Positions 5,751-25,184 of a stretch of 64,000 bases of DNA are shown here, piece by piece (positions within the stretch are counted from its first letter, which is position 1; each line of letters opens with the position of its first letter). Under the pieces are notes generated by a model, which saw only the letters and a program-made list of their open reading frames with translations, was not told the origin of the DNA and did not search any database. This stretch comes from Stieleria maiorica (lineage in GTDB: Bacteria; Planctomycetota; Planctomycetia; Pirellulales; Pirellulaceae), in assembly GCF_008035925.1 (NCBI RefSeq), contig NZ_CP036264.1, positions 2,538,443-2,602,442 of the forward strand, given 5' to 3'. The position numbers and the translations under genes were made by a program.

Positions 5751-5780
5751 CGTCTGGTGACGGCAGCTGCGAATGAGGGG

Positions 5781-7635: not shown

Positions 7636-7639
7636 TGTT

Positions 7640-7927: not shown

Positions 7928-7958
7928 TGGAGTCTCTGTCGTGCTAAAGATGAAAAGG

Positions 7959-8423: not shown

Positions 8424-8456
8424 TATTCGATGGAGCTTTCTAGTGAAGGATTGGTG

Positions 8457-9161
8457 TTACTCAATCGCCAGCGCTTTGACGAATAGCACATTGTTCTCCT
8501 TGTGGACATGCTGGTGCATGTCGGCTTCAAGACGTTTCAGCGCATCAAGCATCGCCCGGTAAGTATTGCATGCCCATTCAGGTGGCGAGTATTGATCCGT
8601 GGATTCGCTTAGAGTCTCTAATAGCTTGCCGGCTTCGTCGTGTTCATGCTGCATCTGACGAATCGGGTTCGCAACACTACCGCAGTGGAACTCAGGGCGG
8701 TCGGACGATGCCTCCAGTTGCCGAATAATTGGAAATAGTATGCGTTCTTCTTTCATCATGTGTGGTTCCAATTCGGCTTTTAAGGCGACAAACGCATCAC
8801 GAACCGTCTGCAGCCGCGGCTCATTGTCCCCGTGCACTCGAGCGACTTTCTCAGTCATCAAGTCCAGCCTCGGCAGCTCCTCCTTCAGGTAAGCATGATG
8901 CGTGGACTCGATGTGGTCGGCCAACTCGGTCAGCGTCATCCCATCGGCATCGACGAAACGATCGGTTTGGGCATCAGCGTTGCACTTGTCGAGTTGTTGC
9001 AAGACGTCGGCCGTGTCGATACCGCGTTTTTCGCAGGCACGCGCTAGCGTGACTTTTCCACCGCAGCAGTAATCAATGTTGAGACGTTCGAACACGCGAG
9101 CCAGACTGGGGCTTTGACGCACAAAGTCGCCCACGGTTTGATTGGGGTCGAGAGTTAACAT
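8457..9161 (-). CDS. ric: Iron-sulfur cluster repair di-iron protein (RIC/ScdA/YtfE type)
   Basis: A 234-aa protein with the ScdA N-terminal domain (residues 1-60; conserved ERLNIDYCCGG with Cys32-Cys33) and a C-terminal hemerythrin-like four-helix bundle. Histidines and glutamates for a di-iron site are visible: THHAYL, EPHMMKEERILFP, QHEHDE and HQHVHKENNVLF. RIC proteins restore [Fe-S] clusters damaged by nitric oxide and oxidants. The gene begins 30 bases after norZ, as expected for an NO-stress operon. It acts in the cytoplasm. Length and motif order match the family well. Confidence 0.95.
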   Translation of the reverse strand: MLTLDPNQTVGDFVRQSPSLARVFERLNIDYCCGGKVTLARACEKRGIDTADVLQQLDKCNADAQTDRFVDADGMTLTELADHIESTHHAYLKEELPRLDLMTEKVARVHGDNEPRLQTVRDAFVALKAELEPHMMKEERILFPIIRQLEASSDRPEFHCGSVANPIRQMQHEHDEAGKLLETLSESTDQYSPPEWACNTYRAMLDALKRLEADMHQHVHKENNVLFVKALAIE

Positions 9162-9191
9162 TTCAGTTCCGTTGGGTCAAAGCTAGATGGA

Positions 9192-11555
9192 TTAAGACGA
9201 TCGCAGTTGAGGTTGGTCGAAACCATCGTCTTGCTTTGAAAACGAATGGCCGGTCCACAAGCCGAACACGAACCACACCAGTGCGACGGCTCCCAAGAAA
9301 AAGATCGTGTCGCCTGGGACACGCATCCAACGCAAGGTCTGCATCAGATCCGTCTGCATAAACTCACTGCTGCGGGCAAACCAATAACCGGTTTCGACAG
9401 AGGCTTTCGTTTGCAGCAGTCCAACGGGCAATAGGCTCAGCACGCACATCGCCATCAAACCGATGTTCATGCCCCAGAAGCCGACCTTCAACGCACCGTC
9501 TTTCCATGATCGAGCTGGGATCAGGACTCGCAAGCACATCAACATCAGTCCGATGCCAAGCATACCGTAAACACCGAACAACGCGGCGTGCCCGTGCAGC
9601 GGTGTTGTGTTGAGACCTTGCATGTAATAAAGAGCGATGGGGGGATTGATCATGAATCCGAACAACCCGGCCCCGATCATGTTCCAGAACGCCACGGCAA
9701 CGAAGAAGTAGATCGGCCATTTGTATCGCCGAACCCACGGCGATGCCTTGCTGCGTCGAAGGTCCTCCATGGCGTCAAAGCCAATCAACGTTAACGGCAC
9801 GACCTCTAAGGCGCTGAATACCGAGCCCCATGCAAGCGCCACCACCGGAGTGCCGGAGAAGTACAGGTGATGACACGTTCCGATGATCCCCCCAGCCAGA
9901 AAGATCGTTGCCGACAACAGTGCGGCCGCCGCGGCCAATCCAGGACGCACGAGATTCAGACGCATGAACACGAATGCGATGACGGTTGTGGCGAAGACTT
10001 CGAAGAATCCTTCCACCCACAAATGAACGACCCACCATCGCCAGTACTCGACCATCGTCAGGTGAGAGTGCTGCCCCCAGGTAAGGCCGGCTCCATAGAA
10101 TAAGGCGATCGCACCAGTGGCAACCGCCAACAACGTGACCAGATGACGCTGCGATTTCGCCTCGACGTTTCCTTGGCCGGATGTTCCGATGGCTTTCAGC
10201 TCGGGACGGCTCCGGTCCACATCGAAACTTTGCACGGCTTCTGCGGTGTCTTCCGCGTGAGCGGCCTGTCGAAGGGCGGGCCAGAGTACTCGTAGCATGA
10301 GCACAAGCCACAGCAATAGTCCTGCCATCAAGGCGATCTGCCAAAGTCGGCCGAGCTCCACATACTCATAACCTTGATGTCCGAGATAAAACGAAACGGA
10401 ATCGCTCATGTAGTTCTTGACGCTGAGCCATTCTCCAGTCAATGAACCCACGACAACTAGCAACAAGGCAGCGAACAAAACGTTGACGCCTAGCCGCTGG
10501 AACTTGGGTTCGTGATTGCTGACCAGTGGTCCAATGAACAGTCCCGCGGCCAGCCAGGCGGTCGCGATCCAAAAGAGCCCGATTTGCACGTGCCAAGTCC
10601 GCGAAACGCTATAGGGTAAGTATTCGGCCAATGGAAACCCGTAGAACCCCTCGCCCTCGACGCCGTAGTGGGCCGTCACGATCCCCAGGCTCATCTGTGC
10701 AAAGATCAACGCGGCGACGACCCAAAAATACTTGATCGTTGCCTTCTGCGAGGGCGTGGCCTGCCATCGTGAAAGCGGGTCGGAAGCCGCGATCCCCTCC
10801 GCTTTTTCCTCTTCTTCGCGACGAGAAGCGTACCACCAAGCCATTGCGGAGATTCCGGCAAGCAACATGATCACGCTGACACCGGTCCACACGATGTTGT
10901 CACCCGTAGGCCGATTGCCGACCAACGGTTCGTGTGGCCAGTTGTTGGTATAGCTGGCGATGTCACTGGGCCGTGTCGTGGAAGCGGCCCAAGATGTCCA
11001 AAAGATGAACGTTGCGAATTTGTGAAGCCGCTGCTCATCGGAAATCGTTCCCGGCGGGATGGCGTAGTCGGCGTTGCCGTCGATGAACACAGTTTTGTAA
11101 TGTTCGACATTCGCTGCGAACGCCTCCGCGCGAATCGGGGCGATTGTGGCCACACCCGTCGACTCATCATAGGTGTTGGTGTGCATCATCTTCGACAATC
11201 GCCCGATGAGTTGGCCTTGGTGTTCTTCGTCCAATTCATCAAATGGCTGCCCAAACTCGGCCCCGCCCCATTTGTCAAGGATGAACATGGCTTCACGATG
11301 CAACCAGTCAGCCGTCCAGTCAGGAGCGACATAGCTACCGTGCCCCCAGATCGAACCCACCTGCATGCCACCCAACGACTGCCAAACATTTTGGCCCTTG
11401 CCAATTTCGCCGCTTTCAACAAGCGTCACTCCGTCCGTGGTGACAAACTTGTCAGGGATCGGCGGCATCTCTTGATAGATTCGTGTTCCAATCCAGCCTA
11501 GGACCAGGAACGAGACAACCATCACGGCTGTAAATGCGAGCCAAAGACGTTTCAT
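9192..11555 (-). CDS. norZ: Quinol-dependent nitric oxide reductase (qNOR)
   Basis: A 787-aa membrane protein with about fourteen helices, the size of the single-subunit quinol-oxidising NO reductase rather than the two-subunit cytochrome-c type. The N-terminal periplasmic extension between helices I and II (GKGQNVWQSLGGMQVGSIWGHGSY) is the qNOR hallmark. The catalytic domain keeps the conserved histidines (VHLWVEGFFEVF, GTCHHLYFSG, LHGHAALFGVYG) that bind heme b, heme b3 and FeB, and Glu in WVEGFFE near FeB. It reduces two NO to N2O with quinol as donor, detoxifying NO or completing partial denitrification. It lies between hmp and ric on one strand. An ATGCAT half-site resembling the NsrR consensus lies about 100 bases upstream. 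Confidence 0.95.
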   Translation of the reverse strand: MKRLWLAFTAVMVVSFLVLGWIGTRIYQEMPPIPDKFVTTDGVTLVESGEIGKGQNVWQSLGGMQVGSIWGHGSYVAPDWTADWLHREAMFILDKWGGAEFGQPFDELDEEHQGQLIGRLSKMMHTNTYDESTGVATIAPIRAEAFAANVEHYKTVFIDGNADYAIPPGTISDEQRLHKFATFIFWTSWAASTTRPSDIASYTNNWPHEPLVGNRPTGDNIVWTGVSVIMLLAGISAMAWWYASRREEEEKAEGIAASDPLSRWQATPSQKATIKYFWVVAALIFAQMSLGIVTAHYGVEGEGFYGFPLAEYLPYSVSRTWHVQIGLFWIATAWLAAGLFIGPLVSNHEPKFQRLGVNVLFAALLLVVVGSLTGEWLSVKNYMSDSVSFYLGHQGYEYVELGRLWQIALMAGLLLWLVLMLRVLWPALRQAAHAEDTAEAVQSFDVDRSRPELKAIGTSGQGNVEAKSQRHLVTLLAVATGAIALFYGAGLTWGQHSHLTMVEYWRWWVVHLWVEGFFEVFATTVIAFVFMRLNLVRPGLAAAAALLSATIFLAGGIIGTCHHLYFSGTPVVALAWGSVFSALEVVPLTLIGFDAMEDLRRSKASPWVRRYKWPIYFFVAVAFWNMIGAGLFGFMINPPIALYYMQGLNTTPLHGHAALFGVYGMLGIGLMLMCLRVLIPARSWKDGALKVGFWGMNIGLMAMCVLSLLPVGLLQTKASVETGYWFARSSEFMQTDLMQTLRWMRVPGDTIFFLGAVALVWFVFGLWTGHSFSKQDDGFDQPQLRSS

Positions 11556-11651
11556 CGGATTCCTATAGGTTCGGCAGACGCCAGATAAAAATTGCTTGAT
11601 TTGATGGTGGTATCGGGTAGCGGTGTTCGCGCCGCGTTTTGCGCTACAGTG

Positions 11652-11660
11652 AATGCATCC
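11652..11660 (-). promoter_or_regulatory. Possible NsrR-type half-site upstream of norZ
   Basis: Read on the minus strand the bases are GGATGCATT, matching one arm of the NsrR-like operators found elsewhere in the window. The second arm is not recognisable, so this is a weak call about 100 bases before the norZ start. Confidence 0.25.
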
Positions 11661-11684
11661 GGAGACGGGACCCTATCTGCAACA

Positions 11685-12920
11685 CTAAGCTGGGATCGTG
11701 GCGTGAAACTCTTGTTTGGGACCAAAAAACTCGTAGCGTACGCGATGCTCATCCACGCCTAGCTCTCGCAAACTCGCGTGCACCGATTGCATGAACGGCT
11801 TGGGGCCACAGAAGTAGAAATCTGCCTCTTCATACGGAGTCCAGGTCCGCAACAGCTCCGTTGTCACCAACCCGACGGCATCGCACGCATTGGTTTCCAC
11901 GTCACCAGGGAGCGGCTGGTCGTATAGAACATGGGTGTGCACATTCGGCGCGGCTTCGGCCAAATTGCGGAGTTCATCGGCAAAAGCGTGCAATTTGCTA
12001 TTGCGAGCAGCCTGCAAGAAGTAAATGTGAGCGTCGGGATTGGCATGCACGATGGATTTCGCCATCGAAAGCAGAGGCGTGATTCCGATACCACCGGCGA
12101 GTAATACGATCGGCTTGGCGACCCTCGTTGCATCCACCGTGAATTCACCACAGGGTGGCCCCAGTTTGATTCGGTGCCCTTCGGCAATCGCATCATGCAG
12201 GTGGTTCGAGATCAAGCCGTCGGGTGCATCGGCGATCGGCCGTTCTTCCCGTTTGACACTGATGCGAAAATGCGACTCGCCGGGGCGATCAGACAAACTG
12301 TAGTTGCGCGGAGAGGTCGGCGTATTGGGGTGTTCAATGTGGACGGTGATGTACTGACCGGGCTTGAACGGAGGGAGCGGCCCCTCGTCTTCCGGCTTCA
12401 AATAGAACGAAGTGACGACATCGCTTTCGGGAACTTTCCGGGAAACCAAAAAATTGCGTGTACCGTTCCACCCGCCGGGAGTCGACTCCTGTTCCTTGTA
12501 GATCCCAGACTCACGTTCGATGAAGATGTCCGCCAGAAACCCGTATGCCTCCGCGACGGCGTCAATGATTTCGTCGGTCGCGGCATCGCCCATGACGTCC
12601 TTGACGGCCGCGAGCAGGTTTTCGCCGACAATCGGATAATGCTCCGCCTTGATGCCCAGTGAGCAATGTTTCTGGGCGATCAACTCGACCGCTGGCATCA
12701 GGACGGCAGGATTGTCAATGTGCGTAAAGTAGGCACAAATCGCACCGGCCAAGGCCTTTTGTTGCCCACCGGTATGCTGGTGTGCCTGATTAAAAAATGC
12801 CTTCACCTCGGGGTTGGCCTCGAACATACGTTCGTAGAATCGACGCGTGATGGTCTCGGCGTTGGCGGCGACCAGGGGCGTGATTTCCTTAACGATTTGG
12901 ACCGTTTTTTCGCTCAGCAT
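11685..12920 (-). CDS. hmp: Flavohemoprotein, nitric oxide dioxygenase
   Basis: A 411-aa protein with all three Hmp domains. Residues 1-140 are the globin (proximal His85 in AQKHCSLG). Residues 150-260 are the FAD-binding domain with RNYSLSD at 205-211. The C-terminal third is the NAD(P)H-binding domain ([14 protein letters not shown] and [11 protein letters not shown]). It converts NO and O2 to nitrate using NAD(P)H under aerobic conditions, and complements norZ, which works when oxygen is low. It is divergently transcribed from the Rrf2-type regulator, with an imperfect palindrome in between, which is the classical NsrR-hmp arrangement. The norZ gene follows 129 bases downstream. Confidence 0.97.
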
Positions 12921-12998
12921 GTCGGGGTAGTACTCAGGTCAAGAGGGGGGGCATGGCGGGGAGACCAGAACATGTACCTGAATGTATATTTCTAAATC

Positions 12999-13025
12999 TG
13001 CACGTCAAGGTGCATGATGGATCTT
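12999..13025. promoter_or_regulatory. Candidate NsrR operator between hmp and the Rrf2 regulator
   Basis: Two overlapping inverted repeats lie here: TGCAC-N6-GTGCA (12999-13014) and the imperfect palindrome AAGGTGCAT-G-ATGGATCTT (13007-13025), in which seven of nine arm positions match. The second resembles the AAGATGCAT...ATGCATCTT consensus of NsrR. It lies about 80 bases from the hmp start and overlaps the upstream alternative starts of the regulator, favouring the start at 13056. Confidence 0.5.
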
Positions 13026-13055
13026 GTCAAGAATCCGGTAGAGAATCAGAAAACC

Positions 13056-13487
13056 ATGCTTTCCAAAACAGCGGAATACGCGTTGCGAGCGGTCACGTTC
13101 TTGGCTTCAAGCGAAGCGTGCGACAAAACGCCCTCATCAGCCGACGGCATCTCGGCCGGAACACAGATTCCCCGTCGATATCTCAATCGCGTGCTCCAAG
13201 ACATGGTGGCCACCGGCCTGATCGAATCGAAATGTGGTCCGCGTGGTGGATACGCGCTTGCTCGAGTGGCCGCAAAGATCACGATCCTCGATGTGGTTAA
13301 TGCGGTTGCACCACTTGGTCGAATCGCAAGTTGTCCGCTGGGGCTCAAGTCACACACATCACTCTGCCCGCTGCATGCGGAACTGGATCGCGCCTATGCG
13401 GAAACGGAAGCTGCCTTTGCCGCGGTGACGATTAAGCAACTTCTCGATTCGGCCAGCCCGATCATCCCGCTCGTTGATTCAACGTAG
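13056..13487 (+). CDS. Rrf2-family transcriptional regulator (NsrR-like)
   Basis: A 143-aa Rrf2 protein from the start at 13056, chosen because [12 protein letters not shown] is the standard Rrf2 opening; upstream ATGs at 13014 and 13017 would add a non-conserved tail overlapping the putative operator. The winged helix has [14 protein letters not shown] as the recognition region and [11 protein letters not shown] as the wing. The cluster-binding loop holds only two cysteines in [16 protein letters not shown], with nine residues between them, whereas NsrR and IscR normally have three. A [2Fe-2S] or [4Fe-4S] cluster may therefore use a His as an extra ligand. Position next to hmp supports an NO-sensing repressor, but this is inferred from context. 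Confidence 0.85.
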
Positions 13488-13507
13488 CGCGCGGCGAGAA
13501 ACGGAGA

Positions 13508-13545
13508 CGCACTGAGCCTGGGCAAATCCAAAGCCTCAGTGGGCG
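13508..13545 (+). terminator. Hairpin downstream of the Rrf2 regulator
   Basis: CACTGAG at 13510-13516 pairs with CTCAGTG at 13535-13541, with flanking GC pairing, about 20 bases after the regulator stop. There is no T-run, so it is only a possible terminator. Confidence 0.3.
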
Positions 13546-13684
13546 CATGCCCCTAGGAGCGCTCGCGGCCTGCCAATGGCATAATGGCTAGTAGCTCGCC
13601 TCCTGGCCTTGAATCAGTTTTCCCATACCATGAAGGTGGCCTTTGGCCCTCAGTGTCCCCAGCGAGTATTCGAGATGCCGTGCG

Positions 13685-13897
13685 ATGCAACAACCTATCA
13701 CTGGTTATCACAGGGACGATGAGGGGCACTGGGTTGCTCAACTTGCATGCGGCCACAATCAACACGTCCGCCACGATCCGCCATGGCTCGTTCGACACTG
13801 GGTAACCAATCAGGCTGGACGCAACGGAATGCTCGGCTTTCACCTCGATTGCAAGAAGTGTGACGAGGGAGTTCCGGCGGATGAACGCCCCTTATAA
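13685..13897 (+). CDS. DUF3565 family protein
   Basis: A 70-aa protein that matches DUF3565: QPITGYHRDDEGHWVAQLACGHNQHVRHDPPW, then a C-terminal CKKCDEG. The conserved Cys-Gly-His, the His-rich segment and the Cys-x-x-Cys pair suggest a small zinc-binding or iron-binding unit, but no function is established for the family. The start at 13685 is chosen because family members begin at this point; no clear Shine-Dalgarno is visible, and an upstream in-frame ATG at 13643 adds a non-conserved tail. It lies about 200 bases downstream of the Rrf2 regulator on the same strand. Confidence 0.85.
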   Translation: MQQPITGYHRDDEGHWVAQLACGHNQHVRHDPPWLVRHWVTNQAGRNGMLGFHLDCKKCDEGVPADERPL

Positions 13898-14124
13898 TAC
13901 GGCTGATTCGCGAGGTTCTCAGTGGCGATGCTCCCTACGCAAGCAGACGAGAACCCACCCGCTTGCAAAGGGTTACGCTTAGGCTCAATGGAGCCCGGCA
14001 TTCACTTTCGACAACTCGCGGAAATGCTTTTCGTTGATCATGAGCCGACCACGAATGATCGATCGCCAGCAAGCGGCTTGTGCATTCCTCTAGCAATGAC
14101 GTCGCTGGGAAACATGGCTGGAGT

Positions 14125-14394
14125 TCATGCCGCCGCACGTCGAGGCGGTTGCAACGGCACAATACAGAAACCTCGCATTCGAGCCTCATTCACGACGAGG
14201 TCACTGAGGAACATCTTGTCCCGTGACTTTCCGCGGCGCTTCTGGGTCTCAATTTCCGGGTCTGACGCGCCGGCGAATTCGCGAATAATCCGTGTCACCG
14301 CTTCCGTTTTTGTTCCTTCGGGAACCCTGACATCGACGTGTACCAGCGAACCGTCAGGACCGGTCGCGTAAGTGTCAAAAGCATCGATGCCCAT
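14125..14394 (-). CDS. DUF2024-like small protein
   Basis: An 89-aa protein whose N-terminal half (AFDTYATGPDGSLVHVDVRVPEGT) resembles the DUF2024 family opening. The C-terminal half has no CxFCH motif of typical members; it instead carries a basic segment (QKRRGKSRDKMF) and ends in PPRRAAA. It may be a divergent or rearranged member. An NsrR-like operator (14450-14474) sits 55 bases upstream of its start, suggesting control by NO stress. No function is known. Confidence 0.6.
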   Translation of the reverse strand: MGIDAFDTYATGPDGSLVHVDVRVPEGTKTEAVTRIIREFAGASDPEIETQKRRGKSRDKMFLSDLVVNEARMRGFCIVPLQPPRRAAA

Positions 14395-14449
14395 ACCAGC
14401 CTCTCTTTATGAAGAATCAGGTCAACTCGAATCATCAAACTGGATGCAG

Positions 14450-14474
14450 AAAGATGCATCACTCCTACATCTTT
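14450..14474. promoter_or_regulatory. NsrR-like operator upstream of the DUF2024-like gene
   Basis: AAAGATG at 14450-14456 and CATCTTT at 14468-14474 form a perfect seven-base inverted repeat with an 11-base spacer. From AAG to CTT the span is 23 bases, equal to the 11-1-11 layout of the NsrR consensus, and the left arm reads AAGATGCAT as in the consensus. It is the best operator match in the window. Confidence 0.55.
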
Positions 14475-14538
14475 AGTCTCCGGTCGTCGCGGTGCTGGAC
14501 TTGAGCGACTTTCTAGGTTTCATCCGTAAGCACTAAAC

Positions 14539-14800
14539 CTATTGGTAAGAAAGGTTCGAGGCGAGCCAGCGTTCGACCTCCTCGATGGGCTTTCCCTTGC
14601 GTCGTGCGTAGCTTTCGATCTGGTCTCGCGTCATGCGTTCGACCGTGAAATAGCGGGACTCGGGATGACCGAAATAGAGTCCGCTGACGCTTGCCCCCGG
14701 CGTCATCGCGAAGCTGCTGGTCAATTCGATGCCCGTGTTTTTCTCCGCGTCGAGTAGGTCAAACAAGGTTCGTTTCTCGGTATGGTCCGGGCACGCAGGG
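14539..14800 (-). pseudogene. metH: metH 3' fragment (activation domain end), separated by IS insertion
   Basis: This piece encodes the last 83 residues of methionine synthase ([16 protein letters not shown], then [16 protein letters not shown], then the family C-terminus [15 protein letters not shown]). Removing the IS and one 10-base duplicate joins it exactly in frame to the 5' part, restoring [14 protein letters not shown] and a protein of about 1233 aa when counted from the GTG at 19537. It has no start of its own; a TTG in the IS end could only give an implausible product. Bases 14791-14800 are the left copy of the target duplication. Confidence 0.93.
14791..14800. repeat. Target site duplication, left copy
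   Basis: GCACGCAGGG directly precedes the left IS end and is identical to the right copy. Confidence 0.9.
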
Positions 14801-16087
14801 CACGACGATCGCACCAAAATCTGGATTCAGTATTCGCCGAAGCCTTGCCTCAGTGAACCCCTCCGCCAATAAATTCAGCCGGACTGGTTTCTCACTGCCC
14901 TGTTACGGAGATGGCAATGGCTTCCCAAATCGACGTGTTTCACGAGTGTTTTGATCAAGTTGAAGATCCGCGAGTGGCTGGACGAACAACTCATCCACTT
15001 AACTCGATTCTGTTCTTGGTTGTCTCGGCTGTCATCGCTGGCGCGGACGGTCCTGATGAGATCGAAAGCTTCGGCGATGAGAAGCTGGACTGGCTATCCA
15101 AATACGCAGATTTTGAAGCCGGCATCCCTTCTCACGATACCATCACGCGAGTGTTGTCCCTGATCAAACCAGCTGAGTTTCAGAAGGCACTTCTTCAGTG
15201 GCATGCTCATCTCTGCGAAATGAATTGGGATCACGAGATTAAGGACGACGATCATCCCGTTCATGTTGCGATCGATGGCAAGACGGTACGAGGTTCCTAC
15301 ACCGACGCGGAGAAATCCGATGCGATCCACATTGTCAGCGCCTGGGCAACCGAAAACGGCGTTGCGCTTGGGCAAACCGAAGTCGACTCAAAGTCCAACG
15401 AAATCACGGCGATTCCCGAGTTACTCGAATTGATCGACATCAGCAATGCGATCGTGACGCTCGACGCTATGGGTTGCCAAAAGTCGATCGCCGAAAAGAT
15501 TATCGACGAAGGTGGCGACTATGTTTTCGCCGTCAAGGACAATCACCCCAAGCTCTGCGCCGCCATCGCTGAACATTTTGAAATGGCTCACAACGAAGGG
15601 CTCACAACTCATGGCGTGCGATCGACCACGACCAAGGGGAAGCAGGCTGGGCGTGACGAAGAACGCTTTTACGCGACTGGCCCGATTCCTGAGTCACTGC
15701 GTGCCCTGACCGATCAATGGAAAGGGGCCAAAAGCATTTGCCAAGCGAATACTTGCACGAGTCGTGGCGACAAACAAACAAGTGATATTCGCTACTACAT
15801 TTCAAGCCGACCGGCACGTGTAGGTGAATTCGCAAATAGCGCTCGTCGCCACTGGGGCATCGAAAGCATGCACTGGGTTCTCGATGTCGTGTTTCATGAG
15901 GATTCGAGTCGGCTCCGAACCAAGAACGCTACGTCGAACATGAGCTTTACTCGTCGGTTTGTCACGACGCTTCTCAAGCGAGACACCCGGAAGAAGAGTC
16001 TTAGGCGGAAACGAAAAATCGCAGGCTGGAACACCGCATTTCTCGAAAAACTCCTGTTTGCAGCCTAATTTTGGTGCGATCGTCGTG
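14801..16087 (+). mobile_element. ISAs1-family insertion sequence in metH
   Basis: The element is 1287 bases long. Its ends are perfect 20-base inverted repeats, CACGACGATCGCACCAAAAT at 14801-14820 and its complement at 16068-16087. It is flanked by 10-base direct repeats GCACGCAGGG (14791-14800 and 16088-16097), a duplication length normal for ISAs1. It contains one intact transposase. Identical ends, an intact gene and an undamaged duplication indicate a recent insertion. No second copy is seen in the window. Confidence 0.95.
14911..16068 (+). CDS. ISAs1-family transposase
   Basis: A 385-aa DDE transposase. The catalytic triad is readable: Asp122 in [11 protein letters not shown], Asp185 in VTLDAMGCQ and Glu318 in [15 protein letters not shown]. 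The N-terminal [26 protein letters not shown] is typical of the family's H_repeat-associated domain. The frame is complete, and its stop codon shares one base with the right inverted repeat. It presumably catalyses cut-and-paste movement of the surrounding element. Nothing suggests inactivation. Confidence 0.96.
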
Positions 16088-19000
16088 GCACGCAGGGTAA
16101 CCTGCGGCCGGCCGGATCCCGCGGTACCTTTCGTTGATGAGATCCTCTTTGCAAAGCCCTTCTAGTTTGCCAAACCCCCAATCAACTCTTGCTCGCTCAT
16201 GGATCATTTCCGCCAGTGCTTCAACCAGTCGATCGGCGACCGCTTGCACCATGATCGCCCGGTAGTCATCCAGCTCCGACTTGTATCTCATCGCCAATTC
16301 GCTGGCCCCAATGCCAGCAGTCACCGCGAACCCCCCAATATAGTCTTCACGCCCGTTGTCGACTGGAGCGACATAGTCGGCGAGCGACCGGAAGTCCTGC
16401 TGGCCTTTACGTTCCCATTGTTGACGTAGGAAATGCAACCGCGTCTTTTCTGTCGCTCGGGATTCATCAGTGAACAGGATCACGTCATCCCCGGCACTCG
16501 CTGCCGGCCAGAAACCATAGACCGCATTGGCCGTCAACGTGCGTTCCGCAATGATTTCATCAAGTAGTTCATTGGCGTCACGGAAAAGTTCTTGGGCTTG
16601 CGTGCCAACCGTCACATCATCAAAAATCTTCGGATACTTGCCTTTCAGCTCCCAGGTCATGAAGAAGGGGGACCAATCAATGTAAGGATGAATGTCGTCG
16701 AGCGGAATGCGACTCAGCACGCGGATGCCGGTGAAAGCGGGCTTGTTGATTTGGACCGTATCCCAATCGGTTTTGAAACGCTTTTCAAGCGCCTCTGCAT
16801 ACGGCACCAGTTTCTGTTTGCGATCCCGGAAGGTGGCGGAAAGTTTGATTTGAGTCTCCGCGTTTTCGGCGATGAAAGCATCGCGACCGTCGCCCAGCAA
16901 TCGCTCGACCACATTGACGCTTCGGCTGGCATCAAGCACGTGGACCACCGGTCCGTCGTACGCCGGTGCGATTTTCACGGCGGTGTGCTTTGCACTGGTG
17001 GTCGCACCACCAATCAACAAGGGTATCGTCATGTCGGTGCGTCGCATTTCACGAGCGACGTGAGCCATTTCATCGAGAGAGGGCGTAATCAGCCCGCTCA
17101 GTCCGATCATATCGGCATTCTGTCTAACCGCCTCTTCAAGGATTCTCTCGGACGACACCATCACCCCCAAGTCAACGACTTCGTAGTTGTTGCACTGCAA
17201 GACGACGCCGACAATGTTTTTTCCGATGTCATGGACATCGCCCTTGACGGTCGCGATCAAGAATTTGCCGCGAGCCTGCTGGTGCAGCGTACCTGCCTGT
17301 CGTTTTTCCTCTTCCATGAAAGGCTCTAAGTAGGCGACCGCCTTCTTCATCACACGCGCCGACTTGACAACTTGGGGCAGGAACATTTTTCCGGCGCCGA
17401 ACAGGTCACCAACAACGGACATCCCATCCATCAGCGGGCCTTCGATAACCTCAATGCAGCGATCAAAATGTTGGCGTGCCTCCTCGGTGTCCTCGACGAT
17501 GTACTTGTCGATTCCCCTGACCAACGCGTGCTTCATCCGCTCGGCAATCGGCTCTTTTCGCCACGCCAGATCTTCGCCAGATCGTTGTTTGCCACCGCCT
17601 TTGACGGTTTCGGCAAATTCAAGCATTCGTTCGGTGGCATCCGGACGACGATTCAGCAGCACATCTTCGACCCGCTCCAACAGGTCTTTGGGAATCTCTT
17701 CGTAAACCTCCAATTGCCCGGCATTGACGATTCCCATATCCAGTCCGGCGCGAACCGCATGAAATAGGAAGGCACTATGGATCGCCTCCCGCACCGGTTC
17801 ATTACCGCGAAAACTGAAACTGATGTTGCTAACGCCACCACTGGTCTTGGCGCCGGGGCATTCCCGCTTGATCCGACGCACCGCATTGATGAAGTCAACG
17901 GCGTAGTTGTCATGCTCCTCCATTCCTGTCGCGATGGTCAGGATGTTGGGGTCGAAAATGATGTCTTCCGGCGGGAAACCCAGTTCCTTTATGAGTAAGT
18001 CGTAGGCGCGCTTGCAAATCCGCACCTTGCTCTCTTCGTCGGCTGCTTGCCCCGATTCGTCGAACGCCATCACCACGACGGCGGCACCATACTGCCGCAC
18101 CAATCCGGCGCGGCGAAGAAACTCGTCTTCGCCGTCTTTCAACGAGATGGAGTTGACAATTGCCTTGCCCTGTACGTTTTGCAAGCCTGATTCGAGCACT
18201 TCCCACTTGCTGCTGTCGATCATCACTGGCACCGCTGCAACGACATGATCGCCCGCGATCAACCTCAGAAATCGTGTCATCGCCTCGACACCATCGAGCA
18301 TTCCCTCGTCGAAGTTGACATCGATGATTGTCGCGCCGTTTTCCACCTGTTCGCGAGCGATTTCAACTGCTTGTTCGTACTGTTCTTTACGAATCAATCG
18401 AGCAAACCGCTTGCTGCCCATGACGTTGGTGCGTTCTCCGACCATCGTGAAGGGAATCTCCGGTCGCATCACCATCGGAAGTTGGCCTGAGAGTCGGGTG
18501 TAGACCGTGCGGGGCGCATCTTGTTTGGGTCTGCACTGCTTCACACGATTGGCGATGGCTCGGATGTGGTCCGGAGTCGTGCCGCAACATCCGCCCAAAA
18601 CATTCACCCAGCCTTTGTCCGCATACTCGCCCACTTTCTCCGCCATTGCTCTCGGGCTGAGGTCAAATTCACCCATTTCATTGGGCAATCCCGCATTCGG
18701 ATGGCAGGAAATCGGGATCTCCGCAACTTTCGAGAGCTCCTCAAGGTGCGAACGCATGACATCAGGCCCCAACGCGCAATTCATCCCGACGGAAAGTAGC
18801 GGAAAGTGATTGATCGCCGTCCAGAAGGCTTCGACGCTCTGCGCGCTGACAAACGTACGCCCACCGTCGCCGAAGGTTCCGCTCGCCATCACCGCAACGC
18901 GGCGTCCACCGGCGCGGAAATACTCAGCAATCGCGAACAGGCAGGCTTTCAGGTTCAGTGTATCGATGGCAGTTTCAGGCAGAAGGATGTCAACCCCCGC

Positions 19001-19507
19001 AGCGACCAACGATTCCACCTGAGCCCGGTAGCTGTCGACCAGCTGGGGAAAGCTTGCGCCCCGATGCGCCGGATCGTCCTCGGTACTGATTGCGAGTTGT
19101 TTCGTCGTCGGCCCGATCGAACCGGCGACAAAACGCGGCTTGTCCGGCGTCCGCTCGTTCCACTCCTCCACTGCCTTCCTGGCGCACTGGACTGCCGCCC
19201 GGTTGATCTCATCGACCAGTTCAAGCGGCAGGTCAAACTCGACCATCCCGATGGGCGACGCACCAAAGGTATTCGTTTCAACAATGTCGCTCCCCGCTTC
19301 CAGGTAGGCACGATGAATCCTGGTGATCGCATCCGGTTGCGTCAGGCAGAGAATGTCTGAGAAGTTTTTGAGGTCCCGATGATGCTGCGCAAATCGCTCA
19401 CCCCGTACATCGGCTTCCGACAAACCAAGCCGCTGAATCATGGTGCCCATCGCGCCGTCGAGCAACAGAATCTTCTCGCGGATGAGATGCTCAAGGAGGC
19501 TGGTCAT
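16001..19507 (-). pseudogene. metH: Cobalamin-dependent methionine synthase, truncated by IS
   Basis: This gene encodes MetH, which moves a methyl group from methyltetrahydrofolate to homocysteine through cobalamin. Domains in order are homocysteine binding (zinc cysteines in GMNCALGP and [10 protein letters not shown]), folate binding ([15 protein letters not shown]), cobalamin cap and Rossmann domain ([12 protein letters not shown], the DxHxxG lower ligand, and [14 protein letters not shown]), and the SAM-dependent reactivation domain. The native sequence ends at base 16088, after which 28 IS-encoded residues lead to a stop at 16001. The last 83 residues of the reactivation domain are lost, so the enzyme may turn over but would not be efficiently reactivated. 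ATG at 19507 is preferred; an in-frame GTG at 19537 adds ten residues. A structured leader lies upstream. Confidence 0.95.
16088..16097. repeat. Target site duplication, right copy
   Basis: GCACGCAGGG directly follows the right IS end; it belongs to the metH codons for Pro-Ala-Cys read on the minus strand. Confidence 0.9.
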
Positions 19508-19569
19508 CGGCTCGGCTGTCAATCTATTGTCCTTCACTTGGGTGGAACGAAACGCAATTCGGGCTAGGG

Positions 19570-19614
19570 ACGGTAAGGCACCGTTCTGCTGAAAACCCGG
19601 CAGACGGGCTGCCG
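19570..19614 (-). other. Two hairpins in the metH leader
   Basis: ACGGT-AAGGC-ACCGT (19570-19584) and CGGCAG-ACGGG-CTGCCG (19598-19614) are perfect short stems with five-base loops, 30-110 bases before the metH start. I recognise no cobalamin, SAM or SAH riboswitch consensus, so the role is open. Confidence 0.35.
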
Positions 19615-19636
19615 TTGGCAGTGGACCCCGGATCCG

Positions 19637-19668
19637 CTTAAAACATGCATGAACTATACATGTTTAAG
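19637..19668. promoter_or_regulatory. Long inverted repeat upstream of metH
   Basis: CTTAAAACATG (19637-19647) and CATGTTTAAG (19659-19668) are complementary except for one extra A, with an 11-base spacer. The size and position suggest an operator for metH or a divergent gene. The regulator is unknown. Confidence 0.45.
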
Positions 19669-20050
19669 TGATTTAGGTTAACCGGCGTCCAAGCAAGGAT
19701 CGGACGTGTCAAAAGAAGTACAGAGAAAGTTATAGGCCGAACAGATTACGGAAGCCCGTGTTGGCCTGTGTGGCGGCATCGCCGCCGAATCGGCGGATCA
19801 CGGCGTCGTGACTCGCGATCAAACCAGCGATGCGTGCCGATTTTCTTTTGCTCGCCCGGTATCACCGACCTATGGGCTGGCAGTGACCGAAAGCGAACGA
19901 GCGCTACCAGACTCCGTCGCCATCCGCATTGGGGGCGTGCCCAGATAAGTTGACGGCCTGGCCGCTAAAGGTTAAAAACGATGCAACAGGGGAGCATCTT
20001 TGGGGGTTGCGAGTTTGCCACCCCCCGCGTTCTATGCGCGGAGCCATTCA
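19669..20050. other. Gene-poor stretch upstream of metH
   Basis: No complete gene is recognised in these roughly 380 bases. A plus-strand frame without a start codon is open from about 19734 to 19947 but matches nothing I know; it may be a gene remnant. Confidence 0.3.
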
Positions 20051-20203
20051 ATGAGACGGACGACTAACTTTGGAGGATTCGTTTCCGACTGTTTCGCCGC
20101 CACCATTCTCCTATCGATCGTTTCCACCGCGGGCATTTCAGCAGAAGAAGTGAAGGAAGGGCAGCCGATCGGAGCAATCAGTTACACCGTTCCGATCCAA
20201 TAG
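20051..20203 (+). CDS. Possible short secreted peptide or truncated exported protein
   Basis: A 50-aa frame whose first 30 residues look like a signal peptide: MRR start, then DCFAATILLSIVSTAGISA with a likely cleavage before EEVKEGQPIG. Only about 20 residues follow before the stop. It could be a real small exported peptide or the surviving 5' end of a larger lost gene, which would fit the decay seen on both sides. No family is recognised and no Shine-Dalgarno is visible. Confidence 0.3.
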   Translation: MRRTTNFGGFVSDCFAATILLSIVSTAGISAEEVKEGQPIGAISYTVPIQ

Positions 20204-20227
20204 TGAGGAGTCGAGGACTGTTTCGGT

Positions 20228-20704
20228 ATGGAGACGAGTACGCATCTGGTTATTCAGTATGCAGCAGGGCCTACCCTGCTGCACGATGTCGTCGCGAAAC
20301 TGTCAGCGGAGCAGCTTGATGCAGTACCGATTCCCGGGAAATGGTCCACGCGCCAAGTTGTTTGTCACATCGCGGATTTCGAACTGGTCTATGCTGACCG
20401 AATGAAGCGAGTGATCGCCGAGCATCAGCCAACGTTTTTTGGAGGAGATCCTGGAGTATTTGCAGCTGGCCTAGCCTACGAATCACGCGATCTACGCGAG
20501 GAACTTGACGTCATTGAGTCTGTGCGAAAACAGATGACACGAATCTTGCGATTGCTCAATAAGCGTGACTTTGAACGAATCGGCCACCACAGCGACGACG
20601 GTCCGATCTCGCTTGAAACGCTTTTGGGAAATGTCACGAATCATCTACCGCATCATGTCGCCTACATCGAAGACAAGCTAGCGGCGCTGGATCGTGACGG
20701 GTAG
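20228..20704 (+). CDS. DinB-like (four-helix, metal-binding) protein
   Basis: A 158-aa protein with the DinB_2/YfiT-like four-helix fold. The motifs are IPGKWSTRQVVCHIADFELVYADRMKRV at the end of helix one and two, and NVTNHLPHHVAYIEDKL near the C-terminus. His in CHIADFE and the HLPHH pair give the usual three-histidine metal site. Family members act as metal-dependent thiol transferases (bacillithiol or mycothiol in Gram positives) or are uncharacterised. It has no clear operon partner: a possible peptide precedes it and a broken monooxygenase follows. Confidence 0.85.
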   Translation: METSTHLVIQYAAGPTLLHDVVAKLSAEQLDAVPIPGKWSTRQVVCHIADFELVYADRMKRVIAEHQPTFFGGDPGVFAAGLAYESRDLREELDVIESVRKQMTRILRLLNKRDFERIGHHSDDGPISLETLLGNVTNHLPHHVAYIEDKLAALDRDG

Positions 20705-20804
20705 TGGATGCAAACTGCTGGCATCGTTTTGCCCCAAGTCGGCAAGCCTCCCCCTAATTCCGGGCGTGTTTTCTACGAAAGTTTCTTCGTACGAAGCCAT
20801 GGCG

Positions 20805-21118
20805 ATTTCCGCCGAGGTTCAACATTTCACCGGGTTCGAGACTTGGTTCACGCCGCCCGCGGCGATTCCTTTCAATGCCGCTCCGCCAAAGTATAAAATG
20901 ACGCGCGTGGTTTGGGTCGCTGTTTACCTGACAGTGCTTCCATTGATTGCGACGCTCAGGCCTTGTTCAGTTCCTTGCCGCCACTCGTCGCGAGTGCAGG
21001 GATCGCCACGATCAGTGTCGGGTCGATGACGTGGATCGTGCTGGCAGCATTGACCTGGTTGTTTCGTGGCTGGCTGTATTCGCAGTGTCGTCCAGCATCA
21101 TCGGGTCAACTTCATTAA
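20805..21118 (+). pseudogene. Antibiotic-biosynthesis-monooxygenase-type membrane protein, broken
   Basis: Two adjoining frames together give the C-terminal part of an ABM protein with a membrane tail. The first frame reads VQHFTGFETWFTPP, then PKYKMTRVVWVAVYLTVLPL. A frameshift near base 20958 moves the continuation (LFSSLPPLVASAG, MTWIVLAALTWLFRGWLY) into the next frame. Family members have an N-terminal ABM domain before TGFETWF, which is missing here. Hence the gene is both truncated at its 5' end and frameshifted. Confidence 0.6.
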
Positions 21119-21225
21119 ATGTCGTTCGGAACCGTTTTTGATGCTGTCCCGGACACTCTCGGGGCGATCAACGTCCGCGCGGCCGAGCGCAATCGGTAGC
21201 TGGTCACTTGTCGTCCCGGAGGCTC

Positions 21226-21792
21226 TCACAACGCCAATGTGTCTCGAAGTCGGTTCAGAGCATTTTGCTTCTCAGGACCAATGCGATGAAGCGACAAGAA
21301 GCTTGTGGAAACTTTGGCGACGCGAGTGGCGTGTTCCATGAGCTTTTCGCCGAGCATGTTCGCGACGGCATCGGACGATTTCTCCCGCAAGGCTTTGATG
21401 TACAGTTGCCAGGCCTCCCAAAGCGTTTCGCTTGGTTGATGCCTCAGCCACGGCTCAATGATCCGTACAAAGGAGTCGGCATCCTCGTGGGAGTATTGTG
21501 AAACGCAGTCGATCACGACTTTGCGTTCGGCTTCGGTGACGTGGCCATCGGCCCAGGCGACAAAAACGAGTGGCACCAGCAAAAGCACCGCAACGGTGTG
21601 TTCGTCGATGCCCTGCTCGATCAATTCATCAAGCGACGTCTCGTCATCAACAGGAATTGCTTGGCTGAGGCGTTTACGCTTCCCTTCACGCAAAGTCTTT
21701 TCGCGCAGTTGCTCACCAAGCTTTAAATCCACTTGGTGAAAGAACTCATCCTCCAGAGCACGTAGTCGAGTATCGAGTGCGTCGAATGCCAT
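21226..21792 (-). CDS. TerB-like helical protein
   Basis: A 188-aa mainly helical protein. The segment VFVAWADGHVTEAERKVVIDCV matches the signature of the TerB fold (acidic, possibly metal binding), though the flanking sequence differs from classical tellurite-resistance TerB. The N-terminal 60 residues form a charged coiled-coil-like region. The start at 21792 has AGGGAGAAAA upstream. No tellurite gene cluster lies nearby. The function is unknown; a metal- or membrane-stress role is a guess from the fold. Confidence 0.7.
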   Translation of the reverse strand: MAFDALDTRLRALEDEFFHQVDLKLGEQLREKTLREGKRKRLSQAIPVDDETSLDELIEQGIDEHTVAVLLLVPLVFVAWADGHVTEAERKVVIDCVSQYSHEDADSFVRIIEPWLRHQPSETLWEAWQLYIKALREKSSDAVANMLGEKLMEHATRVAKVSTSFLSLHRIGPEKQNALNRLRDTLAL

Positions 21793-22083
21793 TAGTTTTC
21801 TCCCTTCGTTGCAACAGTTCCAGGTTGTCCCGGGGTCAAGAGCCCGATTTGACTAACTGAAGTGCAACTGTCGTACCAACAGATGATACATGGCGATTTG
21901 ACGATCGAATGCCGCCCAATGTTAGTCAGGGTTGACGCGAAGACGCCGTGCGATGACGATTCTTGGCATTCATGTCCGTTGACGCAATACCGCGTCTAAC
22001 TCCTCGAAATCGATCGTGCAGTTATCTTATCAATCGCGAGCTGGATGCTTACGCCACTCTCGCAACGTCGTTACTATTTTCCT

Positions 22084-23913
22084 ATGACTACTGACATTTG
22101 GATAGTGACCTGCGTTCTGCTGGCGACAATCATTGCATTCGTGCTGGACCGCTTCCGTTTGGACGTGGTGGCATTCATCTCTCTGATGGTACTTCTGCTC
22201 ACTGGTATCCTCACACCAACCGAAGCAACCGCGGGTTTCTCTAACTCGCTGGTCCTGATGATCGCGGGACTGTTCGTCGTTGGTGGTGCGATCCTGGAAT
22301 CCGGCGTTGCCGATCTTGCAGGCAGGTGGCTCGGCCGACTTGGCGGCACGTCTACGATTCGGCTAACGGTGATCGTAATGCTGGCCAGCGCGTTGTTATC
22401 GGCATTTCTCAGCTCTACTGGGACCGTAGCGGTGATGTTACCCGTGGTTCTGAGCCTCTGTCGCCGCGCCAAAGTTTCGCCGTCAAAGCTACTAATCCCT
22501 TTGGCATTTGCCGCTTCGCTCGGAGGCATGTTGACGCTGATTGGGACGCCACCGAACATGGTCGTCAATCAGGTATTGCGAGATGCGGGGCTTGATACCT
22601 TCCACTTCTTTTCATTTGCCCCCGCCGGAATTCTGATGCTGACGCTAGGCATCGTTTTCATGTGTACGATTGGCACTCGCCTGCTTCCGGCGCAACGCAC
22701 GGGTTCCGGAAATGCGTCGCAAGATCAGGGATTCGTGTCGCGTCCGGAACTGATTCACAGCTACGGCGTCGACGGCCAGATTCGCGAAATCAGAATTCCA
22801 CACGGATCGACGTTCGCGGGTCGCACCCTCCGCGACCTTAGGCTTCGCACCGTTTTTCATGTCAATGTGATCGCGGTTTCTACCACAGGTGCGAGGGGCA
22901 CGGTGGTGCGAAAATGTGACCCGGATACTCTTCTGCAACCCGGTGACACGCTGTTGATCAAGTCATCGAATGAGGAAGCCATCGCAAACCTAATCAGCGA
23001 GGGGAAAATCGAATTGATTGCATCAACAGCGGCATTGCCCAAAGAAGTTTATTTGGCCGAACTCATTATTCCCCCGCGATCAGAGTTTGTCGGCCGGACG
23101 GTGCGGGACGTGGATTTCTTTCGCATCTACGGGGCAATGGTGCTCGCTTTACAGCATCGAAACAAACCGGTTGGTACTCGGACATCGGACACTCCGCTGG
23201 TGCCTGGCGACACGCTGTTGATCGCCGCCAATGCAAGTGCGTTGAAGAGACTAAGGAAATCGCGAAGCAATGTATTGCTGGTCAGCGAACAGGAGGAACA
23301 AAGAGAGTCGCCGCTTACTCCCGCCGCCCGTTGGGTCGTCGTCATTCTCGTCGGAATGCTGATTGCAATGAGTGCCGGCATCGTTGCCAACGTGACCGCC
23401 GTTCTCGCCGCTGCCACACTGATGGTGATAGCCGGAGCATTTCGGGGATCAAATGCTTACCAGAGCATCAATTGGGAGAGCATTGTGATGATTGCGTCCG
23501 TCATGCCACTCGCAACTGCGTTGGAGAAGACTGGGACACTCGACTTGGTCGTAGGTGAAATCGTGGAGAGCCCCGGACTTACGAGTCCGTCATCGCTTTT
23601 GTTGCTGCTTTTCGCGGTCACGTCGCTGTTAAGCCAAGCAATCTCGAATACCGCGACCGGTGTACTGATTGCCCCACTGGCACTCCAACTCGCCGAGCGG
23701 CTTGGTATCTCTCCCTATCCGTTACTGATGGGCGTTGCTTTGGCCGCGTCCACAGCGTTCTCCACTCCCGTTGCGTCACCGATCAATGCTTTGGTAGCCG
23801 GAGCGGGAAACTATCGTTTTGGTGATTTCCTAAAAGTAGGCGTGCTGCTTCAGCTGCTGATTCTTTTTGCGACACTCGCCATCGTGCCGCTGCTGTTTCC
23901 GTTCAGTCCATGA
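22084..23913 (+). CDS. SLC13-type permease with two TrkA-C domains
   Basis: A 609-aa membrane transporter. Two transmembrane halves carry family signatures: SSTGTVAVMLPVV and GTPPNMVVNQ in the first half, SQAISNTATGVLIAPLA and the final AASTAFSTPVASPIN in the second. Between them, residues about 215-400, lie two soluble RCK/TrkA-C domains (LRDLRLRTVFHVNVIAVS and VRDVDFFRIYGAMVLALQ). This architecture is common in divalent-anion:sodium symporters and related sulfate or dicarboxylate carriers; the TrkA-C units likely bind a ligand that gates transport. An upstream start at 22045 is possible. The substrate cannot be stated. Confidence 0.88.
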   Translation: MTTDIWIVTCVLLATIIAFVLDRFRLDVVAFISLMVLLLTGILTPTEATAGFSNSLVLMIAGLFVVGGAILESGVADLAGRWLGRLGGTSTIRLTVIVMLASALLSAFLSSTGTVAVMLPVVLSLCRRAKVSPSKLLIPLAFAASLGGMLTLIGTPPNMVVNQVLRDAGLDTFHFFSFAPAGILMLTLGIVFMCTIGTRLLPAQRTGSGNASQDQGFVSRPELIHSYGVDGQIREIRIPHGSTFAGRTLRDLRLRTVFHVNVIAVSTTGARGTVVRKCDPDTLLQPGDTLLIKSSNEEAIANLISEGKIELIASTAALPKEVYLAELIIPPRSEFVGRTVRDVDFFRIYGAMVLALQHRNKPVGTRTSDTPLVPGDTLLIAANASALKRLRKSRSNVLLVSEQEEQRESPLTPAARWVVVILVGMLIAMSAGIVANVTAVLAAATLMVIAGAFRGSNAYQSINWESIVMIASVMPLATALEKTGTLDLVVGEIVESPGLTSPSSLLLLLFAVTSLLSQAISNTATGVLIAPLALQLAERLGISPYPLLMGVALAASTAFSTPVASPINALVAGAGNYRFGDFLKVGVLLQLLILFATLAIVPLLFPFSP

Positions 23914-24612
23914 CCATTGCTGAACACCGATCGGATCGGCGATGTAAGCCGCGCGGCAGAGGAAACTCCCACCTTCGTTTTCCCAGCGATCGATCTCGTG
24001 TTCGTGCGTCCTGTCGATGTTCATTGTCATTCTCCTCGGATTGTGTAGTTCAGCACGTCATGCGTCGCCGCTTCATCACTCATAAATCTCGTGATGAAGC
24101 TCGCTACCACTTCACTTACGCAAACGGCGGACCAACCGGTGGTTGGCGTGCATTCACACGGAGAAAACAGTCAAGGCTCAATTGGCCGTCTGAAGCCACA
24201 CGGATCGCGAGAACCTAGAGCGTCAACCTGGGTTGGCGCTTCGCTATCCGTGGTGACGTATCCAACACGCAATTGATTTGTGAGTCCCCGAAACACCGCC
24301 GTTCGTACCTTTGGTCCGAAGATTGCTTCGAGTAAGTCCGTAGGGTAAGTCATCGGGACTTTCGACCCCGTACACATCGGAATCTTCACGGCCCTGTTGA
24401 TTCAATCGACCAGTCGATGACGAGTTCCGTTACAGCATTCTCGGCCAATAAGGGTCATCGTCATGCTCTTGTGGAAAACAACATTGTCGCCAACGGTCCG
24501 CACCAAGAGCTTGCGTCAGCCACTACCAAAGCCCCGGCGCGTGCCGCTACAAATCAACAAGGTTTCGCGATCATCACAGCACGATTCCGCCGCAGATGTG
24601 GGGAAGCGTGAC
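23914..24612. other. 700-base region without a recognised gene
   Basis: Only short frames occur on either strand and none resembles a known family. A minus-strand 66-codon frame (23830-24030) partly overlaps the permease. The stretch may hold promoters for the following small genes or be degraded sequence. Confidence 0.4.
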
Positions 24613-24711
24613 ATGGGCACCTATCGCAACGATCAGCGGCGTTACAGCGTCACCGTTTTGCTGGCGCTGCTCGTCGTGTTGCTCGTGACCGTGATCCTGG
24701 TACTGCTCTAG
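24613..24711 (+). CDS. Putative 32-aa single-pass membrane peptide
   Basis: The frame begins MGTYRNDQRRYSVTV and continues with an unbroken run of Leu, Val, Ile and Ala to the stop, giving one transmembrane helix with a basic N-terminus. GGGAAG precedes the ATG by seven bases. Small stress-associated membrane peptides of this kind are common, but the family is not recognised. It lies 60 bases upstream of rnk. Confidence 0.4.
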   Translation: MGTYRNDQRRYSVTVLLALLVVLLVTVILVLL

Positions 24712-24770
24712 CTCGTCTTCATCCCCAATTCCTCTCAGTACGACATCACCTCCAAACCGGACTTCTCGAC

Positions 24771-25184
24771 ATGGCATCCCGGAAACTGTTTGTGACACTC
24801 GAAGACTTCGATCTTCTGCTTGAACTCTTGAAGGAAGAATTGCTCGGCGCGATTTCGGACCCGAAAGCCGCTCGAGATCTAGCGACAGAACTGCAACACG
24901 CGACGATTGTCGATTCAGCCTCGGTGCCAGACGATGTCGTGACGATGAACTCGACCGTCAAGCTGACGGACTTGGAGACCAAGCGGACCGAAACCTATAC
25001 GCTCGTCTATCCCGACGACGTGAACATCACTGTGGGTCGATTGTCGATCCTTGCACCGATCGGAACGGCGATCCTCGGCAACCAAGTCGGGCACACGGTC
25101 GGCGGGTCCGACTCAGCCGACAAGAGCATTCTACGTATCGACGAAGTGATCTACCAACCTGAACGCGACTCCGTTGCCGCGTAA
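24771..25184 (+). CDS. rnk: Nucleoside diphosphate kinase regulator, GreA/GreB-like
   Basis: A 137-aa protein of the Rnk group. An N-terminal helical region (TLEDFDLLLELLKEEL) is followed by the GreA/GreB C-terminal FKBP-like domain: VTMNSTVKLTDLETKRTETYTLVYPDD, then ISILAPIGTAILGNQVG in nearly canonical form (here LSILAPIGTAILG). Rnk binds RNA polymerase near the secondary channel and is linked to nucleotide-pool and alginate control. Its short helical arm lacks the full coiled coil of GreA, so it is not a cleavage factor. It is followed by a universal stress protein on the same strand. Confidence 0.88.
   Translation: MASRKLFVTLEDFDLLLELLKEELLGAISDPKAARDLATELQHATIVDSASVPDDVVTMNSTVKLTDLETKRTETYTLVYPDDVNITVGRLSILAPIGTAILGNQVGHTVGGSDSADKSILRIDEVIYQPERDSVAA

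Follow-up and report, generated by a model that had tools for sequence, protein, structure and literature searches.

An ISAs1 element splits a methionine synthase gene with a candidate NsrR-type operator in Stieleria maiorica

The interrupted metH1 gene

The window analyzed here, a stretch of 64,000 nucleotides from Stieleria maiorica (C1:2538443-2602442 of the 9,894,293-bp genome sequence C1), holds a gene for cobalamin-dependent methionine synthase, metH1, that is divided by an insertion sequence (IS) of the ISAs1 family. The 5′ part of metH1 forms an open reading frame (ORF) of 1178 amino acids on the minus strand (16001..19537), with matches to TIGR02082 / NF007024, PF02574, PF00809, PF02607, PF02310, and PF02965, the reactivation domain; its 3′ part is stranded within an ORF on the same strand (14539..14817). 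The 1287-bp element between them (14801..16087, plus strand) ends in terminal inverted repeats of 20 perfect bases and is flanked on either side by a perfect 10-bp direct repeat, GCACGCAGGG, whose left and right copies lie at 14791..14800 and 16088..16097. Its single ORF, which is open, encodes a transposase of 385 amino acids (14911..16068, plus strand) that matches NCBIfam NF033564 transpos_ISAs1 with 361.7 bits (cut-off 70), together with PF13808 and PF01609. The target duplication in this family is some 8-10 bp long, and the window element, which shares with the family its type of transposase, single ORF, terminal inverted repeats, and short target duplication, shows no notable difference from it. 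An earlier note on this DNA had described a metH split by an intact ISAs1 element with a 10-bp duplication, and the sequence, the repeats, and the open transposase bear this out.

The 10-bp duplication is a habit of the element, as three further insertions in the host genome each carry their own exact 10-bp repeat (GGAGAAGCAA, GGGTTCCATG, and GCCCGTCAGC). That the insertion is recent, as the earlier note held, is plausible in view of the perfect repeat, the open transposase, and the undamaged 3′ piece of metH1, but identity among copies is unusable as proof. A second full copy in the host genome (C1:4784574-4785860) is 100% identical to that of the window, but this is weak evidence of youth, since copies at several other places run into stretches of N after 125-127 bases, apparently because a repeat was collapsed in an assembly from short reads. 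The possibility of chimeric elements, their cores swapped, was considered and dropped, the middle of those copies reading N. Near 9.20 Mb and 9.48 Mb of the host genome (loci L017 and L018), a left and a right end of this same IS share the 10-bp flank CCCGCGAGTA; the two ends, each adjoining an unsized gap, are on one strand but separated by about 274 kb, and the shared flank reflects either a genuine rearrangement or a misjoin in scaffolding. The nearest full-length relatives of the element among those compared are copies in genome G012, 87% identical. Related IS (83-87% identical) number at least 20 full-length copies within that one genome, where the ISAs1 lineage is widely spread.

The 5′ ORF reads to RPAAGYPAC and then continues through 28 element-derived codons, while the last 83 codons of metH1 (PDHTEK...NLSYQ) remain in an open frame from 14790 down to 14542, followed by a stop. 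The reactivation domain is consequently split, with positions 2-216 of the 273 of the PF02965 profile in the 5′ piece and positions 205-273 in the 3′ piece. Direct reading of the frames and the division of PF02965 confirm the frame arithmetic given previously, with 83 residues lost and 28 gained, and the truncation of the domain. The homocysteine, folate, and B12 modules of the 5′ part are matched over their lengths; set against the whole domain series of MetH (TIGR02082), the window gene has its first three modules matched and its reactivation domain cut. When the intact paralogue, metH2, is aligned to the reactivation domain of Escherichia coli MetH (PDB 1msk), the cut falls directly after the S-adenosylmethionine (AdoMet) motif RxxxGYPxC, just beyond what we take to be Cys1142 of the E. 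coli enzyme. The residue matching Tyr1189, presumably an AdoMet ligand, sits in the lost piece. The window gene shares with E. coli MetH all the domains and the RxxxGYPxC motif, and differs from it by the cut inside the reactivation domain. As the Tyr1189 equivalent and the rest of the fold are lost, although RxxxGYPxC is kept, the truncated MetH1, even if stable, should be unable to be reductively reactivated, and the S. maiorica protein should be non-functional or short-lived.

metH2 and the metH1 lineage

The host genome (G000), compared here within a set of 14 genomes of the genus, carries an intact second gene, metH2 (C1:9402686-9406393), encoding 1235 amino acids, its single open frame covering both PF02965 (2-273) and PF02574 (1-283). 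Across 1153 aligned positions it shares 78% identity with metH1, and its end is 76% identical to the stranded 3′ remnant. In the host genome, PF02965 is found in the two window pieces and in this one intact gene (match at C1:9405521), and the homocysteine-methyltransferase domain PF02574 occurs at two places, none beyond the two metH. There is no match in the host genome to the cobalamin-independent enzyme MetE (PF01717 0, PF08267 0). Because MetE gave no match and PF02574 is confined to the two metH, metH2 is the sole intact methionine synthase among the types searched in this genome. The cell had been expected to rely on MetE or another copy, or else to show cobalamin-dependent growth defects. 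Of these suggestions, another copy is indeed present, MetE as a fallback enzyme is rejected on the null results for PF01717 and PF08267, and, since metH2 is intact, a cobalamin-linked growth defect in methionine synthesis would not be expected under ordinary conditions. At gathering thresholds, Rfam gave no hit to any family in the window or in the 16-kb region of metH2, and hence none to riboswitches for cobalamin, S-adenosylmethionine (SAM), or S-adenosylhomocysteine (SAH).

As to the reactivation domain elsewhere, six genomes (G016, G024, G027, G029, G035, and G044) hold open frames of 256-283 amino acids with a weak partial match to it. A split domain in a member of the order, G043, was taken as an assembly break, both pieces ending at contig ends.

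Seven of the 14 genus genomes carry metH1 (the host, G001, G002, G004, G005, G007, and G012). It is accompanied by metH2 in six of the seven, and metH2 is present in 13 of the 14, all but G004. PF01717 was matched in two genomes of the set (G006 and G009), both without metH1. A tree of 37 MetH proteins places the seven metH1 of the genus and that of Rhodopirellula solitaria CA85 in a set of eight with a support of 100/100; of seven intended outgroup loci, the tree includes the two that passed a motif filter, and it is without L044 and the incomplete L098. In the same tree, the host metH2 groups with that of G013, the fork joining G003 being weak (83/54). The two genes differ in their divergence: the host metH2 has a synonymous divergence (dS) of 0.29 from G013 and 0.67 from G001, whereas the window metH1 is near saturation against the other metH1 (dS of about 2.3 or more). 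Furthermore, DNA comparison found no block in G013 colinear with window positions 5000-24900 (40 of 65 candidates scored). In view of this near-saturated dS against the low dS of metH2, and of the missing colinear block, metH1 departs from the history of the species. These comparisons indicate that metH1 is a distinct paralogue and no recent copy, and that the window gene was probably either gained by lateral transfer or retained from an old copy that other lineages have lost. The ratio of non-synonymous to synonymous divergence (dN/dS) of the window metH1 is 0.032-0.044 in six of seven pairs, the other one being saturated, compared with 0.033-0.060 for the other metH1 pairs.

NsrR-type palindromes and their surroundings

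Upstream of metH1, 103 bp before its first possible start (GTG), lies an NsrR-type palindrome, AAACATGTAT-AGTTC-ATGCATGTTT in the metH1-ward reading (19641..19665). A second one, AAAGATGCAT-CACTC-CTACATCTTT (14450..14474), is located between the metH1 stop and a small DUF2024-like ORF. In the accessible text of Rodionov et al. 2005 (PMC1274295), the NsrR consensus is gATGyAT-(N5)-ATrCATc, the core and 5-base spacer of which (ATGyAT-N5-ATrCAT) are equalled by the metH1 palindrome; the core matches are 12/12 at metH1 and 11/12 at the DUF2024-like ORF.

In an initial survey, the palindrome was seen before five of eight genes of the metH1 clade and before none of 12 full-length metH2 upstream regions, a 13th being too short; a first strict form, AAGATGNAT-N6-ATNCATCTT, had 0 matches in the window. 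The pattern used for the scans was built from five metH1 promoters and the DUF2024 site, and a matrix scan of the window places the metH1 site first (39.0) and the DUF2024 site second (33.7), both being among the sites from which the matrix was made. Allowing up to two mismatches, the pattern occurs at three places in the host genome, namely before metH1, the adjacent DUF2024-like ORF, and hmp2, a second flavohaemoglobin gene (backward control, 1). With at most one mismatch it occurs at 20 places in nine of the 14 genus genomes (backward control, 0), and seven of these boxes precede the seven metH1 genes, so that every metH1 of the genus has one. Among the 700-bp regions upstream of metH loci (81 of 100 loci examined; 16 not located and three too short), 11 rows, representing seven distinct genes, all metH1, have 0-1 mismatches, whereas the other 70 have at least five. 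The metH1 genes of the genus differ in this from E. coli MetH, and from metH2, which is without the palindrome. The boxes of G002 and G007 were found although they had not been used in building the pattern. When the sites of the window, G001, G004, and G007 are compared with one another, agreement amounts to 83-92% in the 12-base core and to 32-65% in the 40 bases on each side.

Boxes also precede hmp2 in the host and, with one mismatch, in G013, hmp being a member of the NsrR regulon; others precede FabK-like genes (below the model cut-off), a YghX-family hydrolase gene, and genes for short proteins. At loci L170, L178, and L181, NsrR-type boxes lie near ORFs with signal-like starts, as judged by eye, beginning MKR.... 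In the window, a weaker palindrome, AACGATGCAACAGGGGAGCATCTTT (19977-20001; matrix score 13.8), is found before a DinB-family gene at 20228.

A candidate regulator belongs to the Rrf2 family. A box precedes its gene in G004 and G007, and NsrR is its best-scoring single-function model. Orthologues of this NsrR candidate are present in 10 of the 14 genus genomes (E <= 1e-20), among them all seven with metH1; none of the four genomes without it has metH1. In five of the seven (G001, G002, G004, G005, and G012), no more than about 4 kb separates the candidate from metH1. The host protein, at C1:7639974, is 78% identical to the G004 protein encoded beside metH1 and has cysteines at positions 90, 97, and 103, a triad of the kind that holds the iron-sulfur (Fe-S) cluster in known NsrR. 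In the host, the nsrR candidate, a sulfite reductase gene, an NsrR-type box, and hmp2 make up one locus (C1:7639974-7644226, L166), where hmp2 occupies the slot held by metH1 in G001 and G005 (nsrR, sulfite reductase, box, metH1). The sulfite reductase at the corresponding locus of G012 is a mere 73-residue match. Taken over the genus, nsrR or genes for defence against nitric oxide (NO) are found near metH1 in all seven metH1 genomes.

In the window, the genes beyond the 3′ end of metH1 include several for NO defence. The DUF2024-like ORF (14125..14394, minus strand; 89 amino acids) falls below the Pfam cut-off (24.0 of 27 bits), and a 37.5% identical homologue stands at the same place in Roseiconus nitratireducens (L026/G007). 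The ORF has an NsrR-type palindrome 55 bp upstream and possibly encodes an NO-regulated small protein. It is followed by genes for a DUF3565 protein (13643..13897, plus strand; PF12088, 104.7 bits), an Rrf2-family regulator distinct from the NsrR candidate of the host (13014..13487, plus strand; TIGR00738, 96.9 bits, and PF02082), and the NO-inducible flavohaemoprotein hmp1 (11685..12920, minus strand; NF009805, 545.7 bits, cut-off 432). Further on lie a norB-type NO reductase gene with a fused cytochrome-c-like domain (9192..11555, minus strand; PF22085 and PF00115, no NCBIfam match), which from its domain make-up appears to be of the quinol type, and a gene for the iron-sulfur cluster repair di-iron protein RIC (YtfE/ScdA; 8457..9161, minus strand; TIGR03652, 255.8 bits, cut-off 204.7). 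The order metH1-DUF2024-DUF3565-rrf2-norB-RIC is common to the window and R. nitratireducens, the latter being without hmp1 there.

A possible role in the nitric oxide response

From these sequence comparisons, the likeliest account, and one we hold to be probable, is that the ISAs1 insertion split a spare B12-dependent synthase that NsrR would derepress under NO, while metH2 would supply methionine in ordinary growth. NsrR represses its targets while holding an Fe-S cluster and is released upon NO attack, and NO inhibits cobalamin-dependent methionine synthase. According to our model, NsrR would bind the metH1 palindrome and repress the gene until NO destroys the cluster; NO, or the nitrous oxide (N2O) made from it by NO reductase, would attack the cobalamin of the housekeeping MetH; and extra MetH1 would replace the enzyme so lost, restoring methionine synthesis. 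Additional MetH under NO would be advantageous to a cell that has no MetE and makes N2O from NO by its own reductase. In the accessible part of PMC13059711, N2O is described as reacting with the reduced cobalamin of MetH, damaging both enzyme and cofactor, and cells forced onto MetH as being sensitive to N2O.

A number of observations weigh against this account. Five of the seven metH1 palindrome matches are not independent, as they were sources of the pattern, and the bases flanking the core at metH1 are C/G, compared with g/c in the consensus. The NsrR candidates score 106 bits in G004 and 93 bits in G007 on the NsrR model, both below the NCBIfam cut-off of 182. Several of the 20 boxes precede genes without a known NO role, and in the window no box of this type stands at hmp1, rrf2, norB, or RIC (scores of about -21), so that these neighbours are not visibly in the metH1 regulon. 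Outside the genus, the palindrome was not found in CA85 (L024) or in R. maiorica SM1 (L098; its metH is closest to those of CA85 and G004, at 89-90%), the best match having six mismatches in 1500 bp; because these metH1-like genes lack the box, its link with metH1 is, as far as seen, confined to the genus. In G004, metH1 is the only metH and MetE has no match, so that it cannot be a mere stress spare there, and metH1 can evidently also serve alone. Finally, no branch of the metH1 clade is longer than that of the window gene (0.2), which also has 24 private changes at otherwise fixed columns (of 1130 columns in 20 rows), the next gene having 13, and this could reflect weakened constraint before the insertion. 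Decay of metH1 before the insertion is not supported by dN/dS, though dS is near saturation.

One alternative is that metH1 is redundant and without a special role, and became an ordinary pseudogene through an insertion that carried no cost, its function being duplicated by metH2. We regard this as unlikely, yet as the strongest of the alternatives: metH2 is intact and 78% identical, eight of the 14 genus genomes manage with a single metH, G013, the nearest relative of the host by metH2, has no metH1, and the two metH1-like genes outside the genus are without the box. Against it, metH1 forms its own clade under purifying selection, its seven genus genes have in common a promoter palindrome not found at metH2, and each of them has nsrR or genes of NO defence nearby. 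The arrangement in G001, G005, and G007, where the box separates metH1 from a divergently oriented sulfite reductase gene, suggests another alternative, in which the palindrome is real but serves an Rrf2-type sensor of Fe-S or sulfur status, metH1 and sulfite reductase forming a sulfur-assimilation unit. CymR and IscR do belong to the Rrf2 family, and the score of the candidate regulator is below the NsrR cut-off; nonetheless, we find this proposal rather improbable, for the box is also found before flavohaemoglobin genes (G000 and G013) and nsrR-like genes (G004 and G007), its core and 5-base spacer equal the NsrR consensus, and the best single-function model of the regulator is NsrR. Least probable of all is that the truncated MetH1 still works, reactivation being unnecessary or provided in trans through the MetH2 domain, for although its first three modules are matched over their lengths and Thermotoga has the reactivation domain as a separate protein, the cut leaves only part of the domain, joined to 28 foreign residues, which may misfold, and the host genome gave no match to a free-standing reactivation protein (PF02965 solely in the two metH).

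The proposed assignment of metH1 to an NsrR-controlled NO response finds parallels in known systems. With the NsrR regulon, as it is given in the accessible text of PMC1274295, it shares the operator core ATGyAT-N5-ATrCAT, hmp as a member, and a regulator beside its targets; it differs in having a methionine synthase as a member, a text search of that source for the word methionine giving no hit. The bypass of N2O poisoning by MetE, in the part of PMC13059711 that is accessible, has in common with the present case that denitrification gases inactivate MetH and select a bypass; there the bypass is MetE, whereas here MetE gave no match and the NO-type operator precedes the gene of a second MetH. 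In searches on NsrR, metH, NO, and N2O, with subscription journals mostly outside their coverage, no report of an NsrR-controlled metH was found.

The insertion itself is ordinary, and of a pair of methionine synthases it appears to have struck the one for NO stress. With little more than even confidence, we extend this to the proposal that planctomycetes without MetE may carry a dedicated lineage of NsrR-controlled, NO-stress MetH, encoded next to genes for NO reductase, flavohaemoglobin, RIC, or sulfite reductase, and that S. maiorica would be a natural transposon knock-out of it. If this is true, control of a MetH isozyme by an NO-sensor operator would offer bacteria without MetE another kind of bypass, and would place methionine synthase explicitly within the NO response. 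The window would then represent a natural loss-of-function mutant, with close relatives holding intact copies of metH1.

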